This document shows positions 14,702 to 53,773 of a stretch of 53,773 bases of DNA, in pieces (the stretch's first letter is position 1; each line of letters begins with the position of its first letter). Where the stretch lies: positions 1 through 53,773 of IMG/VR virus record IMGVR_UViG_3300027985_000172; one strand, given 5' to 3'. Position numbers and translations under genes: made by a program. The DNA is from a virus. The notes beneath the pieces are model-generated. The model was given only the letters and a program-made list of their open reading frames with translations. It did no database searches and was not told where the DNA came from.

Positions 14702-15222
14702 TTCTTTTCTCTCTCAAGTTGTTCAATAAGAAGTTCTGCATAATGGATTACCTTCCGCAAGTCCTCAACACCACCCTTCTGCTTATACCGACAGGTGTAT
14801 TTGATAATAGACCCCTCACAGAACCCAAGCCCATTAGCTAGGATAAACTCTACTGGTTGGATTGGTAGGTCTTTGTAGTGGGAACCACCAACCTGCACAT
14901 CTAGAGCCGACTTAGGCGCAGTGGAATAACATTTAGGTTCAGTATCTTTCCAATCAGCTACAATGCCCATCTGGGAAGTTTCTTCCTCAAGAATGTTCCA
15001 TGCATCTCTGATTGGATCACCTTTGTTTGCTACCAACTCAATTTCGTCTTCACTTAGGGGGACAGTCCAATCATCATCTTCAATATATACAGAGTATTGG
15101 TATCCTTTGTCTGGGGAAATACCATCAATAACCCCATGCTTGCCAATGTAATCGGGACTAAGGCCAGATCCATTGTCCAAGATAACCACGCGATCACCAA
15201 CGTTAAAAATAGAGTAAGTCAA
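14698..15222 (-). CDS. KOW/SH3-like plus DUF3310 protein
   Basis: The product is 174 aa. Residues 1-65 form an SH3/KOW-like domain (IFNVGDRVVILDNG, then GKHGVIDGI). Residues about 112-174 match DUF3310 (VGGSHYKDLPIQPVEFILAN and IIKYTCRYKQKGGVEDLRKV), a small phage domain of unknown function sometimes called nucleotide kinase-like. The same FNVGDRV-type domain is repeated in the 389-aa protein at 37187-38356. It overlaps both neighbours by ATGA. Confidence 0.8.
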   Translation of the reverse strand: MTYSIFNVGDRVVILDNGSGLSPDYIGKHGVIDGISPDKGYQYSVYIEDDDWTVPLSEDEIELVANKGDPIRDAWNILEEETSQMGIVADWKDTEPKCYSTAPKSALDVQVGGSHYKDLPIQPVEFILANGLGFCEGSIIKYTCRYKQKGGVEDLRKVIHYAELLIEQLEREKK

Positions 15223-15917
15223 AGTAATTTTTCCTCATAAAGGGCCTCAACCCATTGCTTACATACATCACTGCGCACAATGTCATCAAGGGTGAACTCA
15301 ACGATTGTAGCGTCGATGTGATACTTCTTACACAAGTGAATCAGCTTTGTCAAGCCTGAAGTTTCTTTCAAGTCACTCTGGCGAGTATCCCCGTTAAGGA
15401 CTAGGGTGCAGTCCTCCCCAATGCGCGTTACAAGCATGATTGCTTGTTCAACAGTGAGGTTCTGGGCCTCGTCCACAAGGGCTATTGCGTTATTATAGGA
15501 GGCCCCCCGCATATATTCTAGTGGTGCGTAGAGGATATTACCTGCCTTAAGGTTTACTTCAACATCGTTAGCCCCCATGACACCCTTCATAGCCTCTAGA
15601 ATAGGCCCAAGCCAAGGTTCAAACTTCTCCTCTAGGGTTCCGGACAAGGCCCCAAGTGATTTACCTACAGATACCGCAGGTCTGGTGATGATAACCTTGT
15701 CAATCTCTTTCAGCAAGAGTTTATTTGCAGCAATGGTTGCAGGAATGTAGCTCTTGCCAGACCCACTAGGGCCTAGACCAATAATCTGCCCACCAGCCTC
15801 AATAGCATCAATGTATAGTTTTTGGTTTTCTGTGAGGGGAACCAGAGGTTTTACCCTCTGGCCCTTATCTGTTGCGGAGTTCTTATAGGCTGTGTTTCTA
15901 CGGGATTGTTTTACCAA
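15219..15917 (-). CDS. phoH: PhoH-like ATPase
   Basis: The product is 232 aa. Walker A GPSGSGKS lies near residues 48-55 and Walker B ALVDEAQN near 144-151, followed by the PhoH-typical TRIGEDCTLVLNGDTRQSD. These features and the KPLVPLTENQKLYIDAI start identify a PhoH-family P-loop ATPase. Phage PhoH is common in marine and soil phages; its substrate is unsettled, with RNA metabolism and phosphate stress proposed. It sits between the DUF3310 gene and a glutaredoxin. Confidence 0.92.
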   Translation of the reverse strand: MVKQSRRNTAYKNSATDKGQRVKPLVPLTENQKLYIDAIEAGGQIIGLGPSGSGKSYIPATIAANKLLLKEIDKVIITRPAVSVGKSLGALSGTLEEKFEPWLGPILEAMKGVMGANDVEVNLKAGNILYAPLEYMRGASYNNAIALVDEAQNLTVEQAIMLVTRIGEDCTLVLNGDTRQSDLKETSGLTKLIHLCKKYHIDATIVEFTLDDIVRSDVCKQWVEALYEEKLL

Positions 15918-16170: not shown

Positions 16171-17922
16171 TTAAATAGAATCACAAGTTCTAAGGCCAGT
16201 ATTAACGTCAATATAGCAGGCCCCACCTTCAACCACAGTCTCGTCTGACTTATGGTCTTCCTCAATAACATCTTCCACAGCGGAGGCGTTTAGAATACCA
16301 AACCGCTTTCCTGAGGCTCGGAATGTCGTGCAGCCTTTAGCGCCGCCATCATAAGCAAGCATATAAACATTCTTAAAGTCATTCCAAGAGACGTTATCGC
16401 CTACGTTACAAGTCTTAGAGCAAGCACTGTCAACCCACTCTTGTGCCGCAGTGAGCATACCCACATGCTCTTCTACAGACACTTGATCCGCCGTCTTACA
16501 TTCAATACCCCATTCGCGGTAAGCATAATCTTGCACTACCTCAATACGAGGGCCATCTGGTGTTTGAATGGTTCGGCTATACTCAAGAGAGAATACAGGC
16601 TCAAGACCAGATGATACATTATTTGCGGTTAGGCTAATAGTCCCTGTAGGAGCAATACTTGTTAGGTGAGAGTTACGGATACCATGCTGCTCAATAAGAG
16701 AGACTACATCAGTGTCAAGTTTCTTAATAAACTTGCCAGACAGATACTTATCTTTCTCGAAGAGTGGGAAAGCCCCTTTTTCCTTAGCCAGTAGTGCGGA
16801 AGCCTTATACACATTGTTGGTAATGAACCTTAGAATATCTCTTGTCCACTTTTGAGCATCTTCACTACCATATTCAATACCAAGGGCACCAAGAGCATTC
16901 CCAAGACCGGTGATACCTAATCCCATACGCCGCTTACTCTTGGCTTCATCCTCTTGTTGTGGCAGAGGGTAGACCGTTTCATCAATCACATTATCCATAG
17001 CGCGGACGATATATGGAAGGTCATCCTCTAGTAGGTCATATTCAAATACTGCACTTCCGTCATGGAAGAAATAGATATATTTAGTTAGGTTGACAGAACC
17101 CAGAAGACAGGCACCATATGGGGGTAGGGGCTGTTCACCACAAGGGTTAGTAGCACTAATATCCTCAATATACCATAGGTTGTTCATCTGGTTAACCCGG
17201 TCAATGAAGATGACACCCGGTTCTGCCCAATCCCATGCAGCACGTAGAATAGAATCCCAAAGAGAACGTGCCCGAACTGTGTCATAGACGCGCCCATCAA
17301 ACACTAGGTCAAAATCTTTATCCTCTTTGACAGCTTGCATGAAAGCATCTGTAGCAAGGACAGAAATGTTGAATTGTGTTAGATTATCTGAGTTTGTCTT
17401 GGCATTGACAAATTCCATAATGTCGGGGTGGTCAACACGAAGACAACCCATCTGAGCACCACGGCGATGACCTGCACTAGCGATAGTCTTGCACAAAGCA
17501 TCCATAATCCCCATAAAGGACACTGGACCGGATGCCTGAGAGCCCAAGGACTTGATGCGGGAACCCTTAGGGCGAATCCCAGAGAAATCATACCCAACAC
17601 CGCCCCCAAGTTGCATAGTCTTGGCTGCCTCTTTAGCTACGTCCATAATGCCCATCAGTGAGTCTGGGACTTTCTGCATAACAAAGCAATTGAATGCTGT
17701 TACACGGCGGTAAGAACCAGAGGCGGATTGCACACGACCACCTGCGAGAAACCGTTGTTCTTTAATAATTTCGTAAAATTTATCATAATGTTCTTGGTCA
17801 TCAGTTAGTGCGCCAGCTACACGACCACATTTCTGGGTATATGACTCCCCGACTTCACGATATTTTTGTTCATCAGCCCAAACTGCGATTGGGATTTGTG
17901 GTCCAACTTTATGGTCTTTCAA
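16171..17922 (-). CDS. nrdJ: class II ribonucleotide reductase
   Basis: The product is 583 aa from TTG 17922, chosen because AAGGAGG lies six bases upstream; in-frame ATGs further upstream have no such site. It shows the conserved Cys near the start (AFNCFVMQ), NPCGEQPLPPYGACLLG with the catalytic Asn, Cys and Glu, and PTGTISLTA. C-terminal cysteines end in LRTCDSI. No small subunit (NrdB) or activase gene is present, so a B12-dependent class II enzyme is inferred. It converts ribonucleotides to deoxyribonucleotides for phage DNA synthesis. The upstream gene of 53 aa overlaps its start. Confidence 0.9.
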   Translation of the reverse strand: MKDHKVGPQIPIAVWADEQKYREVGESYTQKCGRVAGALTDDQEHYDKFYEIIKEQRFLAGGRVQSASGSYRRVTAFNCFVMQKVPDSLMGIMDVAKEAAKTMQLGGGVGYDFSGIRPKGSRIKSLGSQASGPVSFMGIMDALCKTIASAGHRRGAQMGCLRVDHPDIMEFVNAKTNSDNLTQFNISVLATDAFMQAVKEDKDFDLVFDGRVYDTVRARSLWDSILRAAWDWAEPGVIFIDRVNQMNNLWYIEDISATNPCGEQPLPPYGACLLGSVNLTKYIYFFHDGSAVFEYDLLEDDLPYIVRAMDNVIDETVYPLPQQEDEAKSKRRMGLGITGLGNALGALGIEYGSEDAQKWTRDILRFITNNVYKASALLAKEKGAFPLFEKDKYLSGKFIKKLDTDVVSLIEQHGIRNSHLTSIAPTGTISLTANNVSSGLEPVFSLEYSRTIQTPDGPRIEVVQDYAYREWGIECKTADQVSVEEHVGMLTAAQEWVDSACSKTCNVGDNVSWNDFKNVYMLAYDGGAKGCTTFRASGKRFGILNASAVEDVIEEDHKSDETVVEGGACYIDVNTGLRTCDSI

Positions 17923-18070
17923 TTGTTTCCTCCTTATACTCATCTTGCATATCAGACTTAAGCCACCCCATTGCCATCTTAATGTGTTGGAGAACACCTT
18001 TGTTGTTAGTCAACAGGGAAGCTAGGTAGAGGTGGTCGTAGGCTTTCTTTAGGTCATCTTGTTTAATCAT
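17909..18070 (-). CDS. 53-aa unknown protein
   Basis: The frame encodes a small protein starting MIKQDDLKKAYDHLYLASLL and ending EETIERP. It overlaps the RNR start at its 3' end and the zinc-ribbon gene's stop at its 5' end (TGATG). The ribosome binding site used by RNR lies inside it, so the two are probably coupled. Predicted helical. No family recognised. Confidence 0.6.
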   Translation of the reverse strand: MIKQDDLKKAYDHLYLASLLTNNKGVLQHIKMAMGWLKSDMQDEYKEETIERP

Positions 18071-24323: not shown

Positions 24324-24601
24324 TCGGAACCTCTGACTGGCGGTAATCCATGAACCTCATCACCCTCAACCCAAAGTCGATACAGCATCGCAATGAGTTG
24401 CTTCATTTCACCCCGGACTTCCTCAAAGGACTCCCTTCCTTCTGCGCAATGAATAGCTGCCTTAACAACTTCACCAGATTCTTCAGCCACCTTAGAAATT
24501 ACATAGTTCGGCTGAGGAAACTTGAGCATTGCTTTTTGGGCCTCTTCAACAGCAAGACCAACCAAATTTAGGAAGCCTTCATCAGTGCTAATAAAATTCA
24601 T
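24320..24601 (-). CDS. MazG-like pyrophosphohydrolase (short)
   Basis: The product is 93 aa. The core VAEESGEVVKAAIHCAEG near residues 38-55 and EEVRGEMKQLIAMLYRL near 60-76 shows the ExxxE...ExxxQ/D arrangement of MazG-type enzymes. It sits directly after thyX and overlaps it by ATGA, so a role in nucleotide pool control is likely. It is the second such gene in the genome. Confidence 0.8.
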   Translation of the reverse strand: MNFISTDEGFLNLVGLAVEEAQKAMLKFPQPNYVISKVAEESGEVVKAAIHCAEGRESFEEVRGEMKQLIAMLYRLWVEGDEVHGLPPVRGSE

Positions 24602-25266
24602 TTGTTTTCTCCAAGAAGAGTAGGTAGTGCTGGAATTATCTCTTTACGAATAGCACGAGCAAGCATGACGTGTTCACGCTGGGAATGACCCTCATCATCA
24701 CGAATGTCTAGATAGTGTAACCAAGAGCGGATAGTGCCATTAATGTAGAGAGTGGACATTGTGAGTCCTTCTGGGAGGAAAACACGAGCACATTCTTTAG
24801 CTGCACCACCATCAAGCCACTGATTGTAGACTTTTCTACTTAGTTCTGAAAGCCAATCACACTGATCCTTGAAATTTGATTTGGTTGTTTCATCAAAACT
24901 ATCAACACTATTCTGACGATTCTTGGTGTCCTGCATACGAATGTCACGAGTGCAGAAGGTCATATCAGATGAATAACGTTGACTTAACTCTTGAAAACTG
25001 AAACTACGGTGGCGCAGTAGTTGGCGCGAAATGTCGCGGGGGGCTTGCACTTCCACAACAGCATTAGCCATTTCAAATACAGACCAATGTTTGTTCTTCA
25101 TGCAATATTTAAGCAGCCATTCGTGGTCTTTCCCCCGTTCTTCCTCTTTACGTTCAGAAGAGACACGAGCACAATAGGCCATAAGTTCTTCTGGTGAAGC
25201 AGCAGGAACACCAATGACAGGTTGTGTTAGTGCAATTAGTTTAGCTTTTACTGGATAGTTCGTCAT
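24598..25266 (-). CDS. thyX: flavin-dependent thymidylate synthase
   Basis: The product is 222 aa, the normal ThyX length. The ThyX signature RHRSFSFQELSQRY lies near residues 88-101, and the C-terminal substrate region (TIRSWLHYLDIRDDEGHSQR) is intact. It makes dTMP from dUMP using FAD, NADPH and methylene-tetrahydrofolate. With RNR and the dCMP-deaminase-like protein this completes a dTTP supply route. Start ATG 25266 is used; a tiny frame overlaps it from upstream. Confidence 0.95.
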   Translation of the reverse strand: MTNYPVKAKLIALTQPVIGVPAASPEELMAYCARVSSERKEEERGKDHEWLLKYCMKNKHWSVFEMANAVVEVQAPRDISRQLLRHRSFSFQELSQRYSSDMTFCTRDIRMQDTKNRQNSVDSFDETTKSNFKDQCDWLSELSRKVYNQWLDGGAAKECARVFLPEGLTMSTLYINGTIRSWLHYLDIRDDEGHSQREHVMLARAIRKEIIPALPTLLGENK

Positions 25267-27696: not shown

Positions 27697-28266
27697 TTAG
27701 TGAACAGCAGCGTAGTTCTCCCCGAATTTTACCTCTACGGAAATGTCCACATTGAGTCCAAGCGCCCTGTTAACTTCCTGCATGGATTCCTTCAAGTCTT
27801 GCTCAACACGGTCTTTGTCACAATCTTTAGGAACCTGCAACAGAACTTCATCGTGATAGTTTGCAGACAATTTATACCCCTTCTTGCGCAGCATAAGAAC
27901 CCAATAGTTGAAGCAGTAATCCCCCGTAGATTGGTTGCAGGTAGACCACCTGTCTTTATCGTAACGGAGTTGGTGGTAAAAACCTGAAAGTGGGTTCTTA
28001 AGCCACATGCTACCATCTTTTAGAGTCTTCACGTATTGGTTCCCCGCAACTTTCTTGACAGACCAATTTACCTTCCAATAGGCTTCTAGGAGGGCTTTAG
28101 CTTCCTTCTCAGGGATTTGCAACTCTCTGGCTAATTTAGCTGCACCAACGCCATAGACTGCTGAATATGAAACGGTCTTCGCCTTTTGTCGAACTTCTGT
28201 AAGATGGTGGAACAACTCCTCCTGTTTTTCTATGGGGAGGGCTTTTATATCATCCAATGTCCTCAT
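27697..28266 (-). CDS. DNA polymerase A, C-terminal piece (motifs B and C)
   Basis: The product is 189 aa. It carries family A motif B (RQKAKTVSYSAVYGVG, the O helix, with Lys and Tyr conserved) near residues 26-41 and motif C (NYHDEVLLQV, catalytic Asp-Glu) near 136-145. These belong to the palm and fingers of the polymerase whose motif A is on the preceding gene. It starts at an ATG that overlaps the preceding stop by ATGA. The N-terminal 25 residues (LDDIKALPIEKQEELFHHL) form a linker or interface. Confidence 0.9.
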   Translation of the reverse strand: MRTLDDIKALPIEKQEELFHHLTEVRQKAKTVSYSAVYGVGAAKLARELQIPEKEAKALLEAYWKVNWSVKKVAGNQYVKTLKDGSMWLKNPLSGFYHQLRYDKDRWSTCNQSTGDYCFNYWVLMLRKKGYKLSANYHDEVLLQVPKDCDKDRVEQDLKESMQEVNRALGLNVDISVEVKFGENYAAVH

Positions 28267-29234
28267 TTATCTTTGGCCTTAAACCATTTGAAAAACTCAT
28301 ATTCATCTTCTGTCATTTTACCTGCTTCAATAGCAATTTGGCAGTGCGGATCATATCCGGGGGTATTCATACCCTCTACAAACCCACTATCAAGCTCATA
28401 GATCAGGTGACGTTTGGTCATGTCCTCTAGGGAGCTTACATCAGAACCACAGAAGACCATTCCATCTTGGGGGACGATACAACCTCTGATCTCCTCTCCC
28501 CAAGGGACGCTAGAAATTGCCTTTGGCAGGTTAACAATAGGAACCCTATGTTTTAAACGAAGGGTATTGGTAAGTCCACCAGCGGATGCCACAACATTAC
28601 CATCTTCATCGGAGTGTTCAAGGAAAGACTTAAAAATAGCCATCCTGTGTTTAGCTACAGCAAGCCCCTCAAGTGCAGATAACTCAGGGGCTTTCTTAAC
28701 AAGCTTGACTACACTGTCAGTAAGTTCCCCTTTACGCGGGTCATTCTGTCCGTAGTAGTATAGTTGAGGAATCTTCTTTTCTTCCCCAGTTTCCTTATCA
28801 CGAACAAACTTAAATGTGCATGGTTGCCACCCAAGACCAAATAACCAATCTTTTAATTGGATGTTCGAGTTAGGATTCCCATCTTCATAGCCTACAACCT
28901 CACCAACTGGCCCTACAGACCCTTCAGGAAGCCCTAGACGTGACAGGGTGGAGAACCACTTAGCCCCATGACTAGAGAGGCTACCATCTTTCTTATAGCA
29001 CACCTTAGGCTTGTTGTAATAAGCCATCTGTGGAACCTTTGGCATTGCCTGCCTAAGCTCTTCTCGTTTAGTTTCTACAATTAGGGATAGTTCGTCATAG
29101 TGCTTCTTGGCTTTCTCTCGGTCAATCTTTAGTGGATTAGCTTCTTGTTCTTGTAGGCACGACATCTTGAAAGAAAGATAACGAATGAAACGTAAGATTT
29201 CATTACTTAAAGTTTGTTCTTGCATATTCTCCAT
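28263..29234 (-). CDS. DNA polymerase A, middle piece (thumb and motif A)
   Basis: The product is 323 aa from ATG 29234, chosen for GAGG seven bases upstream. It begins with a helical region like the T7 polymerase thumb (EANPLKIDREKAKKHYDEL), continues with HRVPIVNLPK, and contains motif A as FCGSDVSSLEDMTKRH (catalytic Asp) near residue 275. It ends DEYEFFKWFKAKDK just before motif B would follow. Alone it lacks half of the active site, so it must associate with the next gene's product. Confidence 0.9.
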   Translation of the reverse strand: MENMQEQTLSNEILRFIRYLSFKMSCLQEQEANPLKIDREKAKKHYDELSLIVETKREELRQAMPKVPQMAYYNKPKVCYKKDGSLSSHGAKWFSTLSRLGLPEGSVGPVGEVVGYEDGNPNSNIQLKDWLFGLGWQPCTFKFVRDKETGEEKKIPQLYYYGQNDPRKGELTDSVVKLVKKAPELSALEGLAVAKHRMAIFKSFLEHSDEDGNVVASAGGLTNTLRLKHRVPIVNLPKAISSVPWGEEIRGCIVPQDGMVFCGSDVSSLEDMTKRHLIYELDSGFVEGMNTPGYDPHCQIAIEAGKMTEDEYEFFKWFKAKDK

Positions 29235-29712
29235 GTAGTATCCTCGCTGCACAATCATATGCTTTAGCCGCTGCTATTTCGTCAACATACATTCCAAGAT
29301 ATAATTTCTTGCCATCAAGACCGTTTATAGAAACTCTCCATTTAGAGTCCCTCTTAAACCAACAGATACCTTTGTAATGTGAGCTTGTTTTTCTTGGTTT
29401 TCTGTTCCATGTATTTTGCTTATGTGTAACTTCCCTTAGATTAGAGATTCTATTATCTAGTCTATCCCCATTAATATGGTCAATCTGTCCAGTATGCCAA
29501 CGCCCATTCTTAATTGCAAAAGCTACTGCATGAGCTTTAATATGAATACCACCAACAGAACCTTTATAATAACCGTCTCCACTATATGTTTTAAAGCATT
29601 CCCGACCCTTAACAGCGCCCCCACGTAAATTCTTCTTCCAATAAAACTTACCAGTGTTTGGATCGTAGTCTACAACAGATTTAACATAATCTATATCGGG
29701 TTTATCTGCCAT
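29203..29712 (-). CDS. HNH homing endonuclease inside the polymerase gene
   Basis: The product is 169 aa. HNH core GQIDHINGDRLDNRISNLRE near residues 75-94 is followed by an AP2-like domain (SINGLDGKKLYLGMYVDEIA). The gene overlaps the exonuclease piece by 11 bases and the polymerase middle piece by about 30 bases. It separates the 3'-5' exonuclease from the polymerase domain of one ancestral gene. No room for an intron is left, so the split is at the protein level. Confidence 0.92.
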   Translation of the reverse strand: MADKPDIDYVKSVVDYDPNTGKFYWKKNLRGGAVKGRECFKTYSGDGYYKGSVGGIHIKAHAVAFAIKNGRWHTGQIDHINGDRLDNRISNLREVTHKQNTWNRKPRKTSSHYKGICWFKRDSKWRVSINGLDGKKLYLGMYVDEIAAAKAYDCAARILHGEYARTNFK

Positions 29713-30160
29713 AGATTTCCCCCAATCGTTCTTTCTGCTTTTCCCAAAGCAACCAGTTAATCTTCACGTCCCGAAGAACCCGCTCACGCATAAGCTCTAC
29801 GTTACCTTCAGCCCATTCCTCTTTATTCACCTTCACTTTAGGAAAACCAAAAGAAACACCCCAACTCTCTAGACCATGCTCATTACGTTCAGGAAACAAA
29901 TACCAAGACAATGCCAAAGAGTCAACGAATTTGCTGTAAGGTAGGTTTAGACCAAGAATGCGCTCGAAGACAACTTTATCATGGCGAATATTATTGTGGC
30001 ACACAAACAAAGTGTCTTCTTGCGTAAGAACCTTTCGCATCTCATCATAGTCTGTGGTGAACCCGTAGTTCTCCCCGTCTTCTGTCCAACCAAGGTTCCA
30101 CAACTTTGTGCAGGAATAGGCTAGATTGTCACTTTCGGAGTCCAACACTAGGAATTTCAT
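29702..30160 (-). CDS. DNA polymerase A, 3'-5' exonuclease piece
   Basis: The product is 152 aa. Exo I (LVLDSESDNLAY, Asp-x-Glu), Exo II (CHNNIRHDKVVFE) and Exo III-like (RVLRDVKINWLLW) acidic residues are all in place. The segment HGLESWG is like T7 polymerase. It ends GEIYGR at the position where T7 polymerase leaves the exonuclease domain. With the two other pieces the total is about 664 aa, close to T7 polymerase (704). It supplies proofreading. Confidence 0.9.
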   Translation of the reverse strand: MKFLVLDSESDNLAYSCTKLWNLGWTEDGENYGFTTDYDEMRKVLTQEDTLFVCHNNIRHDKVVFERILGLNLPYSKFVDSLALSWYLFPERNEHGLESWGVSFGFPKVKVNKEEWAEGNVELMRERVLRDVKINWLLWEKQKERLGEIYGR

Positions 30161-30596: not shown

Positions 30597-33122
30597 TCAA
30601 AAGTCTTGTCTCTCCACCTTAGGCTCCTTCGGACCTTGTTTCTCACTCAAGATAGTTGTCTCTGCATCATAAGTCAAGGCCCCCGCTGCGCCAGTAGAAC
30701 CAAAGGGGCGGTTCTTCGTAATCGTAAGATATGCTGTGTTACGCTCTTCCATATCCTCAGCAAAACGGTCACGCTCAAGCTCAATCAGGACAATTGCCTC
30801 TTCTTCGATACTCTTGGCATATTTTGTATGTCCTTCCTCATTAACGTGACTGATCGCAATAATACCAACATTCTTACGCTTAGCTAGTTCAGTAAGTTTA
30901 ACGCCAAGAGATGTTAGGTTTGATGTAGCTGCATCTGTTCCTGATAGATAAGCAAGTCGTTGAAGGTGGTCAATCCAAATGTAATCTGCACCATATACTG
31001 CAATAGCATGGTTACACTGACGAAGTGTATCTTCAATAGGGTCTTGCGGGTTAATGTCGAAAGACACAAACCTTTCTTCACCAATAACCTCTTTTAGAGC
31101 TTCCTTCACTTCCTCTTCAGAAACACCATTCCACTCAGCATCCTCCTTGGTCATTACGTTCTTCCCAAGTTGGTAGGAAGCCATAGCCCTTCCTGTAATA
31201 CTCTTTACCTCTTCCATCATAAGGCAAGCTACAGTGAGGTTTTCCTTGGTTACAATGTGGTGTTGCAGGCAGCGTAGCAATGAACTTTTACCACTTCCCG
31301 GTGGGGCCTTAATTACCGTGATACCACCTTTCACAAGCCCACGACCAACCTTGTTGAAGTCTGCGAATGGTGTTGGAACATACTCATAAGGGTCTTCTTC
31401 CTCAAGAGCAGTCATCCAGTCATCCACAGAAGCGGTGAAGCCAGCGGGTGAATACTTCTTAGCCTTCCACCAAGCACTCTTGTATGCTGCACCATCACCA
31501 GCTTGCAGGAAATCATTGGCGTCCTTATGCTGCCCATGATCCATGACATAGATTTTACCGGGGAATAGATCAAACATAGTCTCAAGGACTTTTTGACCCG
31601 GTTCATCTTTATCTGCACTAACTACAATCTTCTCAAATGAGTCTAGATAGGTTTTGCATTTCTCCCACAGTTTACCAGAAGGGTTTGCCCCCGGAAGGCC
31701 AACAACAGGATTTAGGTAGCTACTCTTTAGCATCTGATGTGCAGACATTGCGTCACAGTTCCCTGACACTGATACTGATCCGTTTTGCCGGACAAGAATC
31801 ATACCAGAAGGCACTTGGACACACATCACACGACCATTAAACGGGACTTTTTTGTAACCCTTCTGTGTTGATGAAGAAGTCTTACTAAAGAGGATAGAAA
31901 CCTTAAGCCACTCACCATATTGATTACTGCGATTCATAATTGTTGAGACATAGCCACACGAATGAGCTAGTGCCTGAACAACGTCCGCATTATGCTTTCT
32001 ATTTGTTGAGAACTCTGCTTGATTTCGCCCCTTTACATAGTTGCCATCCCAGAAGATAATCTCGTCAAGAATTTCTTTCTTATGCTGTGACCACACCATA
32101 GACCAAGGAAGGTCTTTTTTGGCAAAGTCAAGGTTATGCCCACGGTGGATAAACACAGATGTATAACCATTCTTAACCTTATTAGCAGAGAATCTTACGC
32201 CATAATTGGAAAGAAGTTGTTTTACACGGTCAATTTTACGTTGTTTCTTGAAAGCACCATAAATGTCACCACTCTTCCTAAATGTAAAATCTGCGGATAG
32301 CATAACCCACAGTTGTAGTTGTTCAATAGTATACCCACACCAACCTTGAAGATCAGCAACACGTGGGATGCTGAAGAAAGAATTGACCTCAGCTTTGAAC
32401 TTCTTTAGACCCTCTTTTGGGTGATTTCTTACTAGGTTGTGTTCTGGTGTAGTCAGCGAGTAGTAAGAACCAGACTTATACTCGACAAGATCGCCAGAGA
32501 ATTGCTTATCAATAATAGCATCTGGAACAACCCAACTCCCTGTCCCATCACTATTGACTTGCATCACACGATCTTCTGCGTAAAGTTGGTTAAACTGCTT
32601 CCAACCATTCGGTGTTAGGATTTCTGCCGTTTCTGGAAAACACTCCCCCTCTGTGATAGTTAGAACCTTAGCACAACCAGCAGGGAACAAGTTCATCCCA
32701 AACAGTTCATCTCCCTTAAAGCCATTCCCCGAGTAGAAAGCCTTGTGGGCAGTGTTGCGAGTCTTAGTCCCTCCTGATGGATAGACATACCGTTGCTCAT
32801 CACCATACTGGTAGACACCAAAGAACTCTAGTGTCTCCTTGGTAATCCCCCTCATAGGGACAATATGCCCTTCCTTCGTAGAGCCACTTTCTAGCGTCAT
32901 ACAGGTGTCCTCTTCATCTTCTGCTACCAACCCACCATCATATACTAGGAAGGGCTTCTGTGCCTTGCTGTGGCGTCCCCAGAGGCGTCCTTTGTCGTCT
33001 TCCCATGTGGAGAGGCCACAAGATTTGCATTCCCCAACTCTTTTTACAGTATTAAAGTAGTAAGAATCACTACCGCGAGTAGAACTGTTGTGTGCTGGGC
33101 ATTGACCTTTATGTTCAGTCAT
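30597..33122 (-). CDS. T7 gp4-like primase-helicase containing an intein
   Basis: The precursor is 841 aa from ATG 33122; removing the 295-aa intein leaves 546 aa, close to T7 gp4 (566). Exteins show a zinc motif (CPAH...CKSCG, near residues 8-38), a TOPRIM domain with TITEGE|CDAMSA (catalytic Glu) and SADKDEPG (DxD), and a DnaB-type helicase with Walker A KAPPGSGKSS and Walker B-like YIWIDHLQ. It unwinds DNA and makes primers for the T7-like polymerase. The start overlaps the upstream stop; an in-frame ATG at 33182 is further back and lacks support. Confidence 0.93.
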   Translation of the reverse strand: MTEHKGQCPAHNSSTRGSDSYYFNTVKRVGECKSCGLSTWEDDKGRLWGRHSKAQKPFLVYDGGLVAEDEEDTCMTLESGSTKEGHIVPMRGITKETLEFFGVYQYGDEQRYVYPSGGTKTRNTAHKAFYSGNGFKGDELFGMNLFPAGCAKVLTITEGECFPETAEILTPNGWKQFNQLYAEDRVMQVNSDGTGSWVVPDAIIDKQFSGDLVEYKSGSYYSLTTPEHNLVRNHPKEGLKKFKAEVNSFFSIPRVADLQGWCGYTIEQLQLWVMLSADFTFRKSGDIYGAFKKQRKIDRVKQLLSNYGVRFSANKVKNGYTSVFIHRGHNLDFAKKDLPWSMVWSQHKKEILDEIIFWDGNYVKGRNQAEFSTNRKHNADVVQALAHSCGYVSTIMNRSNQYGEWLKVSILFSKTSSSTQKGYKKVPFNGRVMCVQVPSGMILVRQNGSVSVSGNCDAMSAHQMLKSSYLNPVVGLPGANPSGKLWEKCKTYLDSFEKIVVSADKDEPGQKVLETMFDLFPGKIYVMDHGQHKDANDFLQAGDGAAYKSAWWKAKKYSPAGFTASVDDWMTALEEEDPYEYVPTPFADFNKVGRGLVKGGITVIKAPPGSGKSSLLRCLQHHIVTKENLTVACLMMEEVKSITGRAMASYQLGKNVMTKEDAEWNGVSEEEVKEALKEVIGEERFVSFDINPQDPIEDTLRQCNHAIAVYGADYIWIDHLQRLAYLSGTDAATSNLTSLGVKLTELAKRKNVGIIAISHVNEEGHTKYAKSIEEEAIVLIELERDRFAEDMEERNTAYLTITKNRPFGSTGAAGALTYDAETTILSEKQGPKEPKVERQDF
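31758..32642 (-). other. intein in TOPRIM motif of primase-helicase
   Basis: The insert is 295 codons. It begins Cys1 in CFPETAEILTPNGW (block A), contains TTPEHNLV (block B, His), and ends VPSGMILVRQNG (block F-like) and SVSVSGN followed by Cys+1. The penultimate residue is Gly rather than the usual His. The middle part (LWVMLSADFTFRKSGDIYGA, then IIFWDGNYVKGRNQAEFST) resembles a degenerate LAGLIDADG endonuclease. It splits the EGE/DA metal-binding motif, so primase needs protein splicing to be active. Confidence 0.93.
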
Positions 33123-33426
33123 TATAAGTAATCTCTTTGTGGGTAAACCCGTATTTGGAAAGTGTGGAGCTAATTCGCTCACTTACAACACCCGGAGGGG
33201 ATTCGCAATACCAATCCAGATAACAACCTTCACCACGAAGGCCAGCAATAAATCTGCCAGCCGACCTGAAAGTGAACTCAAAGATACCAATAGCAGGCTT
33301 ACCATCCGCATCAAACCAATCGGTATTTGTGAGTGCTGACCAAAGTTCCTTACAGAAATACCTGTCTGTCTTAATTAAGTCTAGAAACTCAATCTTAATA
33401 GCATCTTTAAAATAAATTTCACTCAT
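33115..33426 (-). CDS. 103-aa unknown protein
   Basis: The product is 103 aa. It includes WFDADGKPAIGIFEFTFRSA and GEGCYLDWYCESPPGVVSER, a soluble mixed fold. It overlaps the primase-helicase start by eight bases. No family recognised. Confidence 0.65.
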   Translation of the reverse strand: MSEIYFKDAIKIEFLDLIKTDRYFCKELWSALTNTDWFDADGKPAIGIFEFTFRSAGRFIAGLRGEGCYLDWYCESPPGVVSERISSTLSKYGFTHKEITYND

Positions 33427-53375: not shown

Positions 53376-53773
53376 ATGCCATATGCAACAAATGATTCTT
53401 TACCAAAGGCTGTAAGGGATAAACTTTCTGCACACCAACAAGATGTATTTCGTAATGTGTTCAACTCAATGATGAACCAAGACGGAATAGACGAGAGCAG
53501 GGCTTTTGCAGGGGCATGGGCACAAGCTAAGAAAGCCCCTAAAGTTAAGAAAAACCTTAGGGTAGATATTCTTAAGATCAATGAAGAACAAAGAATTATC
53601 TACGGATGGGCCTATGTTTGCACAGAAGATGGTGAAATTTCTTATGACCATTCTGGCGAGTGGATGAAACCACAGACATTAGAAAAAGCCCTTGCAGAAT
53701 ACATGAAGAAATACCGTGTAGGTAAGACAAATCACGCGGGCGATAAATCTGCTGAGACAGTGTTTGCTTTCCC
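53376..53773 (+). CDS. ChaB-XkdF prohead protein, N-terminal part
   Basis: This is the 5' part of the 189-aa gene that continues at positions 145-316 after the circular overlap. Residues 1-52 are ChaB-like (DSLPKAVRDKLSAHQQDVFR, then ESRAFAGAWAQAKK), and residues from about 60 are XkdF-like (VDILKINEEQRIIYGWAYV). ChaB-XkdF fusions occur in some phages next to the capsid genes, where XkdF is a putative protease. Start ATG 53376 is preceded by AGGAA. Confidence 0.85.
   Translation, partial: MPYATNDSLPKAVRDKLSAHQQDVFRNVFNSMMNQDGIDESRAFAGAWAQAKKAPKVKKNLRVDILKINEEQRIIYGWAYVCTEDGEISYDHSGEWMKPQTLEKALAEYMKKYRVGKTNHAGDKSAETVFAF
53630..53773. repeat. terminal direct repeat, right copy
   Basis: Identical to positions 1-144 over all 144 bases. 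It marks where the circular molecule was cut open in the assembly. Counting it twice would duplicate part of the ChaB-XkdF gene. Confidence 0.95.

Follow-up and report, generated by a model that had tools for sequence, protein, structure and literature searches.

The single-chain family A DNA polymerase is a textbook unit, and a palm domain divided between motif A on one side and motifs B and C on the other would show that its active site can be assembled from separate chains. Does the locus analyzed here encode such an enzyme? The window—i.e., the whole stretch of DNA analyzed, 53,773 bases in length—is record IMGVR_UViG_3300027985_000172, a metagenome-derived viral contig from an uncultured phage. 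Since it carries exact 144-bp direct terminal repeats (positions 1–144 and 53630–53773), it probably represents a whole genome.

Three genes carry the parts of one T7-like polymerase

The genes of the replication module lie on the minus strand in the order primase-helicase (30597–33182), a short ORF (30347–30162), exonuclease, an HNH_3+AP2 gene, thumb plus motif A, and motifs B plus C, such that the primase-helicase is the next large gene upstream of the polymerase pieces. A preliminary description had recognized three polymerase ORFs here; their positions were borne out, but the HNH_3+AP2 gene between pieces 1 and 2 (29712–29203) had been missed.

Piece 1 (29702–30160, minus strand; 152 amino acids) is a 3'-5' proofreading exonuclease that corresponds to the N-terminal domain of related polymerases, to which it is 45–56% identical, and it retains the acidic residues of all three exonuclease motifs (LDSES in exo I, HNNIRHD in exo II, and the Asp of exo III); AAGG lies 9 nt before its ATG. 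Piece 2 (28263–29234, minus strand; 323 amino acids from the ATG at 29234) was assigned by homology, with up to 59% identity to relatives, and by motif A (GSDVSSLE, 28448–28425), and comprises the thumb region and palm motif A. Its ORF could open at 29258, but the start that bears a Shine-Dalgarno sequence (GAGG, with 7-nt spacing) is the ATG at 29234. Piece 3 (27697–28266, minus strand; 189 amino acids) contains the fingers O helix, motif B (RQKAKTVSYSAVYG), and motif C (HDE), and it is on this piece that the Pfam DNA_pol_A match falls (E = 3.6e-17).

When the three ORFs were joined, they aligned end to end and without gaps with the single-ORF polymerases of the Zobellviridae phages CW02 (Salinivibrio), KZY1, and T2S2 and of one Rhizobium phage. 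Motifs A, B, and C and exo I–III are all kept, spread over three ORFs, and the earlier proposal that the pieces sum to one T7-like polymerase thus holds. Phage T7 gp5 has the same fold and domain order as the joined pieces; in contrast, it is a single chain of about 700 amino acids, and identity to it is 17–19%. The placement of the second split within the palm was likewise correct: the catalytic Asp of motif A is on one polypeptide (piece 2), while motifs B and C are on another (piece 3).

The exonuclease boundary and its homing endonuclease gene

Between pieces 1 and 2 lies an intact homing endonuclease gene (HEG) of 169 amino acids (29203–29712, minus strand), with Pfam matches to HNH_3 (E = 1.6e-15) and AP2 (E = 1.1e-4). 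The gene overlaps both of its neighbors. Its ATG falls within the last exonuclease codons, over the exonuclease stop (ATGGCAGATAA), and its 3' end supplies GAGG-7nt-ATG, i.e., the Shine-Dalgarno-like sequence (GAGGA, 29241–29245, minus strand) and the start codon of piece 2.

Separation of the exonuclease is the usual state in the window's clade (18 rows; SH-aLRT 96), where it has its own gene in 15 of the 17 scorable rows and is joined to the polymerase in two members, L009 and L011. In some relatives, the gap between exonuclease and polymerase is empty; in others, it contains small ORFs, an HNH gene, or a C5 methyltransferase. The separation of the exonuclease is therefore stable, whereas its cargo changes. 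Genes resembling DNA methyltransferases were seen in this gap in L031 (3365–4171), L065 (2454–3032), and L021 (3188–3715), the first of which is a C5 cytosine methylase according to Pfam. In bacterial Pol III (alpha-epsilon), which is likewise replicative, the proofreading exonuclease is also a subunit distinct from the polymerase chain, although that enzyme belongs to an unrelated polymerase family and its exonuclease subunit is not HEG-derived.

A HEG within a polymerase gene raises the question of splicing, by which self-splicing introns or split inteins would restore a single polymerase chain. Phage DNA polymerase genes often contain group I introns that carry HNH genes (PMC10580990 and references therein), fractured genes in which split inteins occur have been described (PMC6892783), and the neighboring primase-helicase has an intein-like insertion. 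However, the HEG at this boundary sits in the break without an intron or intein: no Rfam intron was detected in 29000–29950, even at E ≤ 5, or, with gathering thresholds, in any of 12 split loci, and the catalytic intron RNA that marks the group I intron type (SPO1, Bastille) had no Rfam match in the window. In addition, the gaps of 0–95 nt at the motif A/motif B break in the window, L129, L102, and L100 are too short for a group I intron. As for inteins, the pieces lack intein-sized extensions, their ends lie within about 3–25 residues of polymerase homology, and alignment to relatives revealed no N- or C-intein half where one piece faces the next. Splicing of either kind is extremely improbable.

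A recurrent break between motifs A and B

Pieces 2 and 3 meet in an ATGA stop-start overlap (28263–28266, minus strand), which had been noted earlier and is real; the window sequence over this junction, in 28240–28290, reads TAAATGAGG. Since the two genes overlap in this way and the only ribosome-binding sequence ahead of piece 3 is a weak AAGG (10 nt from the ATG), translational coupling with piece 2 is probably needed for piece 3 to be made.

Relatives were gathered by alignment-based scans, which yielded ~150 scorable related polymerases; single-protein scans of viral contigs with piece 2 or piece 3 and a megablast of the replication module against phages returned no matches. Full-length homologues, which the preliminary description had suggested looking for, were found, with all three parts in one frame in 106 cases. 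The exonuclease is apart in 25, the palm is apart in 11, both are apart in three, and six were undecided. The three polymerases with both splits are those of the window, L127, and L129. The three-part arrangement, which had been called rare, is therefore found in only one other species (L127/L129), but within this family, two-part enzymes cannot be called rare. One further locus, L056 (2516–4241), first looked split, with the motif B region missing and a change of frame; this seems to be a deletion or an assembly fault, and L056 was left out of the split counts. The polymerases of phi38:1, phiM6, and RHph_N3_19 are split by annotation, but each proved to be one ORF.

The break between motifs A and B occurs in 13 other distinct polymerases (L009, L027, L054, L081, L099, L100, L101, L102, L127/L129, L132, L174, L175, and L177), and 10 changes on the tree are needed to account for it. 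Its position is closely similar throughout, with the upstream piece ending 5–9 residues past a conserved F[YF] (eight in the window). An endonuclease gene is present at most of these breaks, and only remnants are left at some. The intact genes are of the HNH_3, HNH_3+AP2, or endonuclease VII-like type, and two are without a Pfam match. Remnants only were found in L100 (95 nt, the 3' end of an L081-like endonuclease), L102 (75 nt, a fused remnant resembling that of L009), and L129 (43 nt).

The last of these has a near twin. L127 and L129 belong to one species (98.6–100% nucleotide identity over two stretches and 95% over a third), and L129 lacks 438 bp of the endonuclease gene that L127 keeps, while its polymerase is still split. 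Loss of the HEG with retention of the split is thus observed in relatives. Both members are also split at the exonuclease, giving three-part polymerases. At the exonuclease split, the two additionally differ in a 255-bp insertion that contains a small ORF.

At its N terminus, piece 3 carries a linker (residues 1–22) that is typical of split alleles and aligns with those of L009, L027, L054, L081, and others. In this set, the window's linker sequence, TLDDIKALPIEKQEELF, was seen only in split polymerases, whereas the unsplit close relatives L010 and L018 have a different, unrelated, and shorter linker. The linker motif MT[LI][ED]EMKALP was matched at eight loci, and all seven scorable ones are split. 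The window carries this split-allele linker, yet it has no endonuclease and no remnant at the second split. Given the recurrent site and the linker without an endonuclease, this split is best read as a split allele from which the HEG has been lost. The allele may have arrived by homing, along with its flanks.

These observations bear on two other accounts of the ATGA junction. The first holds that it is a sequencing or assembly frameshift and that the true enzyme is a two-part one (exonuclease plus polymerase), like that of most relatives. The reading frame moves by only one base, the window is a metagenome-derived contig, and a search of viral contigs for the exact junction pattern gave no match, nor any near-identical contig at the junction that could serve as a second copy. 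However, an error would have had to fall exactly at a site where HEGs recur, and in a gene bearing the linker otherwise limited, in this set, to split polymerases and different in L010 and L018; we consider an error unlikely. The second account is that pieces 2 and 3 are made as one protein by programmed −1 (or +2) frameshifting at ATGA. There is direct overlap between the two frames, and frameshifting would yield an ordinary two-part enzyme. However, there is no X_XXY_YYZ heptamer at AAAGATAAATGAGG, and since the same break spans 43–482 nt in relatives, often a whole gene, frameshifting cannot be the common rule; it is highly improbable as the explanation here. Loss of the HEG from an already split gene remains our preferred reading of the junction.

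Selection, structure models, and proposed origin

Pairs of split relatives gave dN/dS values of about 0.07–0.10 on both sides of the splits, indicating purifying selection; these are simple Nei-Gojobori estimates, made on relatives rather than on the window's pieces and with high dS in some pairs. For L081 versus L100, which share the palm split, dN/dS was 0.08–0.09 for exonuclease, thumb, and palm, on both sides of the motif A/motif B break, and for L015 versus L020, which are split at the exonuclease, it was 0.07–0.08 for the same three parts. For the exonuclease of L127 and L129, which differ there by few changes, the estimate was 0.75.

Genes found in pieces are frequently in decay, and this replication module is crowded with mobile elements, so the pieces might be degenerating in a phage that uses another polymerase, from the host or acquired horizontally. 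The data speak otherwise: all motifs are intact, the pieces contain no further stops or frameshifts, dN/dS is well below 1 in split relatives, and the splits have been kept across many lineages. Nor was a second polymerase found among the large ORFs of the window, a genome with exact terminal repeats. Decay is therefore very unlikely, and purifying selection in relatives instead suggests that the pieces assemble into an active enzyme.

We mapped the breaks on a model of the unsplit relative L011 (pLDDT 90.4), whose top PDB matches were T7 DNA polymerase (TM 0.70–0.74). On this model, both splits are predicted to sit in loops, one (151–153) between two long helices and the other (459–464) just before the O helix. 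In an AF2 model of the window's piece 3 alone (pLDDT 90), the N-terminal extension forms a helix continuous with the O helix.

Together, these results make it very probable that one replicative T7-like family A polymerase was split twice by HEGs and that the splits were retained, yielding a non-covalent heterotrimer. Each HEG would have inserted into a surface loop of the polymerase, where its start would bring in a stop codon that ends the upstream piece, and the downstream piece would receive a ribosome-binding site and start codon from the 3' end of the HEG, turning the host gene into two cistrons instead of destroying it. At the exonuclease/thumb boundary, the HNH-AP2 HEG would still be in place, while at the motif A/motif B boundary, it would later have been lost down to the ATGA overlap, the gene never being rejoined. 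A single operon would then give rise to three polypeptides, of which at least pieces 2 and 3 would be translationally coupled. In the putative heterotrimer, piece 2 would contribute motif A, piece 3 would complete the active site with motifs B and C, and piece 1 would act as the proofreading subunit. As judged from the genes, the pieces likely reassemble into a functional polymerase. We further think it reasonably likely that this is an obligate three-subunit family A polymerase with an active site shared by two chains, that it has stayed functional after loss of the palm HEG, and that, in this phage lineage, the fission cannot in effect be undone.

Two-part phage polymerases have already been published for both family A and family B. 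In the OM43 phages MEP401 and MEP402 (Zobellviridae; OP830906), as in most of that phage group, the family A polymerase is encoded by two genes with a small ORF between them, and the authors leave the possibility of an intron open (PMC10580990); by our own alignment, the split falls just before motif A. The likeness to the window is a split family A polymerase in a related phage family. However, MEP401/MEP402 have one split, with the exonuclease joined to the N-terminal part and an inserted ORF of unknown kind, whereas the window has two splits elsewhere, one with a recognizable HEG. In the Aeromonas phages 25 and 44RR, gp43A and gp43B (PolB) form a HEG-associated, two-polypeptide replicative polymerase whose parts co-purify and polymerize (PMC2988022); that enzyme is of family B and has two parts, while the window's is of family A and has three. 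A further parallel is ribonucleotide reductase of Aeh1, which insertion of the HNH HEG mobE split into two functional polypeptides, NrdA-a and NrdA-b (Friedrich et al. 2007, cited in PMC2988022). As proposed for the window, an HNH HEG left an essential enzyme in pieces, but NrdA has one split with its HEG still there, whereas the window polymerase has two. In the open-access literature, we found no three-part family A polymerase and no recurrent endonuclease site between motifs A and B.

The motif A/motif B boundary may serve as a natural break point for split polymerases. Relatives with the HEG present, as a remnant, or gone can be read as successive stages in the splitting of a gene by selfish DNA, and one species (L127/L129) has been caught with and without most of its HEG. 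With this system, it can be tested whether fission of this kind is neutral, costly, or beneficial, and whether a detachable proofreading subunit alters fidelity.

The intein-like insertion of the primase-helicase (~295 amino acids; 31758–32642, minus strand) lies exactly in the Toprim motif (TEGE/C...SGN/CDAMSA) and is missing from relatives; Pfam and NCBIfam returned no intein match for it. Nucleotide-metabolism genes also occur near the replication genes, all on the minus strand, and encode a B12-dependent ribonucleotide reductase (NrdJ, 16171–17997), ThyX (24598–25266), and a PhoH-like protein (15219–15917).
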